Shown: in pieces, positions 10,444 to 29,584 of the stretch
How the letters are laid out: every line of letters begins with the position of its first letter
Position numbering within the stretch: the stretch's first letter is position 1
Source: Chitinophagales bacterium
Lineage (GTDB): Bacteria > Bacteroidota > Bacteroidia > Chitinophagales > UBA2359
Assembly (NCBI GenBank): GCA_020629005.1
Contig: JAHDEE010000041.1
Span: 1 to 38,180, forward strand
Reading direction: 5' to 3'
DNA: 38,180 nucleotides
Position numbers and translations under genes: made by a program
Notes under the pieces: generated by a model
Database searches by the model: none
What the model was told of the DNA's origin: nothing
The model's input: only the letters and a program-made list of their open reading frames with translations

Positions 10444-10571
10444 GCCTAAAATCCTACTAAACACTTAATTGCAGCCATAAGATGGCCGTTTCCAGGAGCG
10501 CTTTAGTCAACTTGGCACTCTTTTGGTCGTTTATCTTAATGCATAGCGAGCAATCCGTTGATTTATTGGTA

Positions 10572-10733
10572 GTGCCTTGGGACATAATTAATGGATAGGT
10601 TAGGTGAGCTTATCTTTTTGCCAATCGAGACGCGAGGATGGAGTATAGCCTTAGCTACATGACAGACGAGCAACGAAGAGTGGCAGAAATAGAAGCCATC
10701 TAAACTGTCCATTAATTAGGTCCCAAGGCAGTA
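10572..10733 (+). repeat. PAL hairpin element, copy 1 (covarying structured repeat)
   Basis: A 162-nt imperfect palindrome. The outer arms, beginning TGCCTTGGGAC at 10574 and mirrored up to 10731, are nearly complementary over about 33 nt. The inner core (10607-10698, 92 nt) runs from GAGCTTATCTTTTTG to CAGAAATAGAAGCC and continues the stem. A small TAGC-CTTA-GCTA hairpin lies in the apical region. The core is 81/92 identical, without gaps, to the core of copy 2 at 27687-27778, while the outer arms share no sequence with that copy. It lies between divergent genes, upstream of both. The strand is arbitrary. Confidence 0.85.
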
Positions 10734-10788
10734 GGTATATGTGGAAGGCTATGCGATTGCCTATTGGATTAAAGGGCTCAGGATATAT

Positions 10789-12760: not shown

Positions 12761-12783
12761 CCACTCCTCAGTTTAGGGAGTGG
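12761..12783 (+). terminator. Short GC-rich hairpin just after the DUF3857 gene
   Basis: CCACTCC (12761-12767) pairs with GGAGTGG (12777-12783) across a 9-nt loop, 19 nt after the stop at 12741. There is no T-run, so it is a weak terminator or an RNA-stabilising 3' hairpin. Confidence 0.35.
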
Positions 12784-12837
12784 GAATCAATATCTGTCGG
12801 ATTTCTAGCAAGTCAAAATGGACAGTTATTGATTCTC
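12782..12837 (+). repeat. Inverted repeat between the two DUF3857 genes
   Basis: GGGAATCAATATCTGTC (12782-12798) is complementary, with two mismatches, to GACAGTTATTGATTCTC (12821-12837) around a 22-nt spacer. It overlaps the preceding hairpin by two bases, so the two folds could be alternatives. Its sequence is unrelated to the PAL and R200 elements. A second CCC block four bases further on could lengthen the stem with a bulge. Confidence 0.5.
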
Positions 12838-12879
12838 AATCCCTTAGAAGCAAAGATGAAACGAAATTAGAATCACGCC

Positions 12880-15093: not shown

Positions 15094-15291
15094 ATTTGGA
15101 GCGAAGCAAATTCATTCGCGTTGTCGGTGTACCCGTGTTCCGTTATTATTCGGCAGCCACCAGCTTGTTCCGCCACACTGCCTGTCGTCTCGCCTCAGGG
15201 CGAGCCACCATGCAGCGGGCTCCACTGGCGCTGGATGTCTACCTCATACCACTTCACCCGGGGCTATTTTGCACTTTCTGTCCACCGCGCC
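15094..15291 (+). repeat. R200 repeat, copy A
   Basis: It opens ATTTGGAGCGAAGCAAATTC and closes CGGGGCTATTTTGCAC then TGTCCACCGCGCC. The internal blocks CTTGTTCCGCC and TGTCGTCTCGCCTC align with copies B and C. It lies 87 nt after the stop of the 12880 gene, on the same strand. Several open frames cross it, but they are not conserved between copies. Confidence 0.85.
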
Positions 15292-27360: not shown

Positions 27361-27566
27361 ATTTTTGGAGCGAAGCGCAATTCCTTCGCAGATACGGCTT
27401 GCCTGCTCTTCGCTATTATGAGCAGCGCATCAGCCTGTTCCTGCTCAGTGCATGCCGTCTCTCCGCAAGCTCCGAGCCCGTCATGCACTGGCAGTCACGC
27501 ACGGCTGCTACACCACTCATAGCCGCTGCGATCAGGGCTATTTTGAACTGTGCGTCCACCGCGCGC
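27361..27566 (+). repeat. R200 repeat, copy B
   Basis: It opens with TTTTTGGAGCGAAGCGC and closes CAGGGCTATTTTGAAC then GTCCACCGCGCG. The internal blocks CCTGTTCCTGCTCAG and TGCCGTCTCTCCGC are shared with copy C, and AGCTCCGAGCC corresponds to similar blocks in copies A and D. It lies 20 nt after the comA stop, on the same strand. Confidence 0.85.
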
Positions 27567-27649: not shown

Positions 27650-27815
27650 CTAGTGCTACGTAAACAAAGTATGTGACACCTTTAAGGAGCTTATCTTTTT
27701 GTCAGCCTAGGCGCGAGGATGGAGCATAGCCTTAGCTACGTGACTGACGAGCAACGAAGGATGACAGAAATAGAAGCCCTTAAAGGTGTTGCGAATTTCG
27801 TTTGCGTAGCACTAG
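27650..27815 (+). repeat. PAL hairpin element, copy 2 (covarying structured repeat)
   Basis: A 166-nt imperfect palindrome. The outer arms (CTAGTGCTACGTAAAC... and its mirror ...GTTTGCGTAGCACTAG) are complementary over about 37 nt with mismatches, and the innermost arm ACACCTTTAAG is perfect. The inner 92-nt core at 27687-27778 matches copy 1 ungapped at 81/92 positions. It sits between comA with its R200 copy and the convergent epimerase gene, 30 nt from the epimerase stop. The strand is arbitrary. Confidence 0.85.
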
Positions 27816-27822
27816 TGCTGAG

Positions 27823-27843
27823 TACTTCGTTTGCATAGCACTA
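27823..27843 (+). repeat. Third copy of the PAL copy 2 arm-end sequence
   Basis: The 21-nt segment here (core GTTTGCATAGCACTA) repeats the right arm end at 27794-27814 (GTTTGCGTAGCACTA) in direct orientation and, inverted, the left arm end at 27651-27671. It ends one base before the epimerase stop codon. It suggests duplication at the element border or slippage. Confidence 0.7.
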
Positions 27844-29382: not shown

Positions 29383-29584
29383 TGCGCGGTGGGGCTTAGT
29401 GCCAGATAGCCCCGATGGTAGCGGAAATGGAGGTGCTGCACGAGGGACTGAGTGTGCCTGCAATGGGGGCTCGACCTTAGGAGAGACCACAGTGCAGGAT
29501 ACACGAAGCCCTCGGGCAGTGCCTCCATTGCAGCGGACAGCGGGTAGACCCTTAACGCGAAGGTATTACCCTTCGCTCCAAATC
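29383..29584 (-). repeat. R200 repeat, copy D (most diverged)
   Basis: Read leftward it opens ATTTGGAGCGAAGGG, contains ACCTTCGCG and GTCTCTCCTAAGGTCGAGCC, and closes ATCGGGGCTATCTGGCAC then CCCCACCGCGCA. The ends match copies A-C well and the middle only in patches. It starts 62 nt after the GT4 stop, on the same strand. Confidence 0.8.

Follow-up and report, generated by a model that had tools for sequence, protein, structure and literature searches.

The window, the whole 38,180-nucleotide stretch of DNA that was analysed, makes up a single 38-kb contig in a draft genome of 6.89 Mb and contains two copies of a palindromic element. Copy 1 spans positions 10573-10730 and copy 2 positions 27654-27811, and each consists of TGC, 31 nt, a 90-nt core, 31 nt and GCA. 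The unit is therefore 158 nt long and can be described as a 34-nt arm, the 90-nt core and a second 34-nt arm. In copy 1, which belongs to sub-family A, the left arm (10573-10606), the core (10607-10696) and the right arm (10697-10730) all lie on the + strand, and the tetranucleotide GTAG on the left (10569-10572) is repeated on the right (10731-10734). By itself the core of this copy is already an imperfect hairpin. In copy 2, which belongs to sub-family B, the left arm (27654-27687), the core (27688-27777) and the right arm (27778-27811) are likewise on the + strand and are flanked by CTAG on both sides (27650-27653 and 27812-27815). The right-hand CTAG is common to copy 2 and an adjoining 25-nt solo mini-hairpin of B type (TGCTGAGTACTTCGTTTGCATAGCA; 27816-27840), which is flanked by CTAG and CTAA and whose 25-nt form is also found at several other loci.

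As originally noted for these two copies, over a length of about 33-37 nt, the arms of each copy are self-complementary. Over 34 nt, the left and right arms pair at 30/34 positions in copy 1 and 27/34 in copy 2, while 200,000 random window positions with the same geometry outside both elements give a background of at most 20/34. The further claim that the two sets of arms share no sequence holds only in part. The arms are far less alike than the cores, which agree at 79/90 positions, but in register 15/34 and 16/34 arm positions agree as well. In addition, both copies have arms of equal length and TGC...GCA ends, and a third sub-family is intermediate between them.

Matches to the query are found in about 40 places in the same genome, with 40 of 153 candidates scored. 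The pattern of the B arm yields 249 matches compared to 27 for a reversed-pattern control, and that of the A arm yields 15 compared to none. Since each copy has two arms and many matches lie at contig ends, the copy number is estimated to be roughly 100. Of the 60 relatives searched beside the genome itself, one member of the same genus carries the element and the other 59 do not. A scan of a species-level genome collection, which may not include the genome of the window itself, found the element only in this congener, the Chitinophagales metagenome-assembled genome JAHDDV01, where it is present in dozens of copies. All of the sequences come from draft assemblies, and many copies break contigs.

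For the arm comparison, 85 copies were read. Inside each sub-family, the arms are nearly constant across dozens of copies in unrelated sites. Sub-family A comprises a handful of copies, B the great majority, and C those of the congener. The 34-nt arms of all three align in register with C as the intermediate; beyond the TGC, left-arm identity is 21/31 between A and C, 17/31 between B and C, and 14/31 between A and B. The ends of the element take the form TGCYT/TGCTR with CTAG-like flanks. A stem that varies, one of two options originally put forward, is thus supported, but as three discrete sub-families rather than as extreme variability from copy to copy. Five mixed copies (L081, L091, L092, L093 and L005) have two arm types joined across the core, as recombination within the core would give. 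The arms of these chimeras pair poorly, with 12-18 of 34 positions in Watson-Crick pairs, compared to 26-30 when both arms are of A or both of C type.

The other option was that the core is a hairpin-targeting mobile element that enters the loops of pre-existing palindromes, with the host palindrome serving as the arms. One core common to three arm types would be expected from such behavior, coreless A and B palindromes do exist, and two copies sit inside the loop of R2, a second abundant hairpin repeat. R2 is about 155 bp long, is bounded by TTAGGGAT...ATCCCTTA and occurs at least 40 times in the genome (loci L201-L228 among them); one copy with an internal deletion lies in the window at about 12770-12850. 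The R2 insertions also provide a comparison that speaks against hairpin targeting. Unoccupied R2 reads GCATC-CTTG-TTGGCTGG in the 28 copies read (five with a one-base variant) and has neither A nor B arms. Occupied R2 reads GCATC-CTAG-(B element)-CTTG-TTGG at L009, where the core is reversed, and GCATC-CTAG-(B element)-CTAG-TTGG at L021. Because the 28 unoccupied copies are without the arms that the two occupied ones have, the B arms must have come with the core.

Sites elsewhere give the same answer. The flanks of 73 copies were rejoined in a script to reconstruct empty sites and compared with mismatched flank pairs. Among these 73 copies, the rejoined sites have no excess of bracketing palindromes (mean score 5.27 vs 5.15 for mismatched flanks) and no excess of DNA folding energy (-6.67 vs -6.78). 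Moreover, the arms are near constant within sub-families and related in register between them, and the coreless B form at L041 has its junction at an AAGG microhomology, which is what deletion of a loop would leave. The expectation that empty sites would be palindromic thus failed at both the paralogous R2 sites and the rejoined flanks, and the insertion of the core into host palindromes is refuted, since the arms move with the core at dozens of unrelated sites; we give this reading next to no credence. In the congener, the intergenic region orthologous to copy 1 lacks the element, as found by a 20-kb synteny search in a region too diverged for a base-exact junction. The sub-families owe their different arms to joint change on the two strands of the stem, and not to a core that jumps into existing hairpins. 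It follows that the same core within different palindromic arms need not imply insertion into hairpins.

The element occurs in 158-nt, 117-nt and coreless 46-60-nt forms. In the internal-deletion form, which has been amplified (nine copies read), 41 nt of the core are lost between GACGAG repeats and a 49-nt core is left. The coreless palindromes are 60 and 46 nt long, with the A type represented at L065, and solo hairpins of 25 nt, such as TGCTACGCAAACGAAGTACGCAGCA, sit between CTAG-like flanks. Since the forms with the 41-nt core deletion, the coreless forms and the solo forms all exist, spread does not depend on the middle of the core. Solo hairpins with B-type ends and CTAG-like flanks, 25 nt in length and once 24 nt, are located at 27816-27840 in the window and at L110, L123, L034, L022, L152, L167 and L175; they may be either remnants or independently mobile units. 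At L088 and L092, 11-nt palindromes (TGCCCAAGGCA and TGCCCGGGGCA) lie between CTAG-like tetranucleotides adjoining full elements and may be all that is left, at the ends, of A- or C-type copies. A coding role was considered and rejected: the sole frame in the core, of about 30 codons, is truncated in A copies, lacks its ATG in the 49-nt-core form and is unconserved between sub-families.

The preferred insertion site is (A)CTAG(T), and insertion adds the element together with one CTAG-like tetranucleotide. Young B copies, defined as those with at most 3 differences from their nearest relative (n=29), were used to examine the junctions. Ten of the 29 have at least one non-CTAG side, whereas the rate of private differences predicts 1.2 (Poisson p = 6e-7). 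In 8 of these 10 discordant copies the departure is one-sided, and identical non-CTAG flanks are found in zero B copies. A plain 4-bp target-site duplication was rejected for B on account of these young copies with discordant flanks; the junctions suit an arrangement in which one tetranucleotide comes from the target while the other travels with the element. In sub-family A, 3 of 7 copies have identical non-CTAG 4-bp flanks (GTAG, CGAG and TTAG), as target duplication would give.

The insertion site also has a bearing on the neighboring genes. In 14 of the 48 copies with readable neighbors, the TAG of the flanking tetranucleotide is the stop codon of the adjoining open frame. Among the other CTAG sites in non-coding DNA, 32 of 238 are placed in this way (p = 0.009), with stop codons taken from open frames and not from annotation. 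The + strand is in the sense orientation at 11 of these 14 copies (p = 0.03). If the site already held the stop, insertion leaves the protein unchanged. That so many copies sit on stop codons suggests a way in which the genome can carry about a hundred hairpins cheaply.

On the + strand, the two window copies each fold into one long imperfect hairpin, at -79.3 kcal/mol (z = -13.6) for one and -72.9 kcal/mol (z = -9.7) for the other. The - strand folds less well, and the + strand is the better of the two in 49/49 homotypic copies. Across 34 homotypic sequences, 96.7% of cells are paired. Both sides have changed in 23/56 pairs, compared to 15.9 in shuffles (0/500). Counted by cell, 128 are changed on both sides, compared to 30.8 in shuffles (0/500), a test inflated by related sequences, and to 12-24 in slid controls, which preserve relatedness. 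Within the core, where homology is undoubted, the covarying pairs are 49-111, 53-107 and 72-87. Departures from pairing on the + strand lean towards G.U over A.C (26:13 unique, p = 0.03). Together with the sense orientation, this G.U excess provides modest support for selection at the RNA level, although strand-biased mutation could mimic it. Overall, the data support an origin of the sub-families by compensatory change together with recombination.

Complementarity of this kind may also be maintained without selection on structure. Long quasi-palindromes are known substrates for template-switching events, and template switching between the arms at replication (quasi-palindrome correction) could account for part of the arm complementarity; at L050 and L060, direct repeats have indeed undergone loop deletion and tandem expansion. 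Yet the consensus of dozens of B copies retains uncorrected G.T wobbles between the left and right arms at arm positions 5, 8, 21 and 22, the core has conserved its unpaired internal loops, and the arms of the chimeras remain mismatched. By the criterion of G.U intermediates, the covariation of columns 5-154 and 16-143 speaks against template switching as the only cause. As a full account of the stem, it is rather unlikely.

The covariation inside the core, the folding advantage of the + strand and the sense orientation behind stop codons could be expected of a structured RNA or 3'-UTR regulator selected by the host that is not a mobile element. Such a regulator is difficult to reconcile with a distribution limited to two genomes of one genus, with near-identical copies at unrelated sites, with insertion into another repeat, and with the recurrent copies from which 41 nt of the core are deleted. 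A search of Rfam gave no match within the window. We regard a purely host-selected RNA as improbable.

In both host genomes, which are incomplete drafts, candidate mobilizing enzymes were sought with family models. Y1_Tnp (Y1/RAYT) matches three genes in this genome and none in the congener; DDE_Tnp_1 has 3 matches in this genome, without matching ends, and none in the congener; and no IS5-type match is over the cut-off in either. For reverse transcriptase there are no matches in this genome and two in the congener, and a reverse transcriptase common to both hosts is therefore unsupported. As a parental insertion sequence or enzyme, none of the four is present in both host genomes. The Y1_Tnp genes raise the question of whether the element is a REP/BIME-type repeat mobilized by a RAYT (HUH tyrosine transposase), which the 25-nt solo hairpins with CTAG flanks would fit and whose single-strand mechanism would suit the discordant flanks. 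However, the CTAGTGC hairpin is absent at the three Y1 loci, two of which are ringed by other palindromic repeats, and the congener carries dozens of copies with no Y1_Tnp match. Mobilization by a RAYT is accordingly very improbable. At L077 and L078, the Y1_Tnp (RAYT-like) genes lie amid their own, different palindromic repeat families.

Taken together, the element is very probably a non-autonomous, MITE-like mobile hairpin that carries its own arms, targets CTAG-like sites and has a compensated stem. The arms move with the core instead of being supplied by the genome, and the unit enters CTAG-like sites, preferably ACTAGT, so that the site gains the element plus one tetranucleotide. Change is compensated throughout the imperfect 79-bp stem, in the arms as well as in the core, and gives rise to the arm sub-families A, B and C. 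The folded + strand, as transcribed RNA or single-stranded DNA, may be recognized or tolerated in mobilization, expression or both, and recognition by a trans-acting enzyme may be what keeps the stem. Copies directly behind stop codons would ride as harmless 3'-UTR hairpins. A bolder reading, which we consider unlikely, takes the RNA hairpin of the + strand as the selected and perhaps mobile form. The element would then be a bacterial SINE-like or RNA-dependent unit that settles on stop codons, is moved by an enzyme class outside the family models tried, and has drifting arms since only their pairing is read.

As a MITE-like hairpin, the element agrees with what is expected of bacterial MITEs (70-300 bp with no coding capacity), being 158 nt long, having terminal inverted repeats in the form of 34-nt arms that are 27-30/34 complementary in the window copies, and being dispersed, with the R2 paralogous empty site and one orthologous region without the element as the counterparts of occupied sites. 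The linked or co-occurring RAYT gene of REP/BIME repeats was not found with it, nor were the 26-bp Correia repeat and the TA or CA termini of CREE/NEMIS as described (PMC2649163). In anatomy it is closest to CREE/NEMIS and YPAL while being a member of neither. The CREE/NEMIS of Neisseria occur as full forms of 153-157 bp, internal-deletion forms of 104-108 bp and forms of 69-73 bp; they are mobile with an undetermined mobilizer, and their RNA hairpin is an RNase III substrate (PMC2649163). The present element is similar in size, has inverted-repeat arms with variant ends around a conserved core and comes in a comparable series of 158-nt, 117-nt and coreless 46-60-nt forms. It differs in its CTAG-like target with discordant copies, as opposed to the TA or CA termini of CREE, and in a stem that has undergone compensatory change along its length and has three arm types. 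YPAL (RU-2) of Yersinia is a 168-bp palindrome shown to be mobile by empty and filled sites (PMC2229807), the same comparison that indicates mobility here. Unlike YPAL, whose targets span or adjoin dyad symmetry and are duplicated over 3-26 bp, the present rejoined sites have no dyad excess. ERIC, which alters transcript stability in an orientation-dependent manner (PMC2229807), and RUP are also small non-coding intergenic mobile hairpins; compared by features and not by sequence, they differ in being TA-ended and in belonging to another host phylum. GTAG-tagged REPs are 20-40 bp long with GTAG at one end and RAYT genes often nearby (PMC3733652). The solo 25-nt forms resemble them in having a tetranucleotide adjoining a short hairpin, whereas the present element is bordered by CTAG-like sequences at either end and has no RAYT linked to it.

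Among bacterial hairpin elements, there are few in which the stem has changed in a compensated way from one sub-family to another and for which an empty site is also available. This family amounts to a natural experiment within one genus, in which a single core occurs with three types of arm, in chimeras and in deletion forms, alongside solo hairpins.

A separate repeat of about 200 bp, R3 (GGAGCGAAGC ... AAAATAGCCC), is found in the window at 29403-29582 on the + strand and at 27364-27544 and about 15130-15270 on the - strand. Its stems of about 21 nt are copy-specific, being complementary within a copy and different between copies (e.g. AATGAAGGTGCTATGCGCCGG and AATACAGGTGCTATAGCAGGC). R3 illustrates a hypervariable paired stem better than the two palindromes studied here do, and 13 of its 39 candidate copies lie above the 99th percentile of pairs with shuffled partners.
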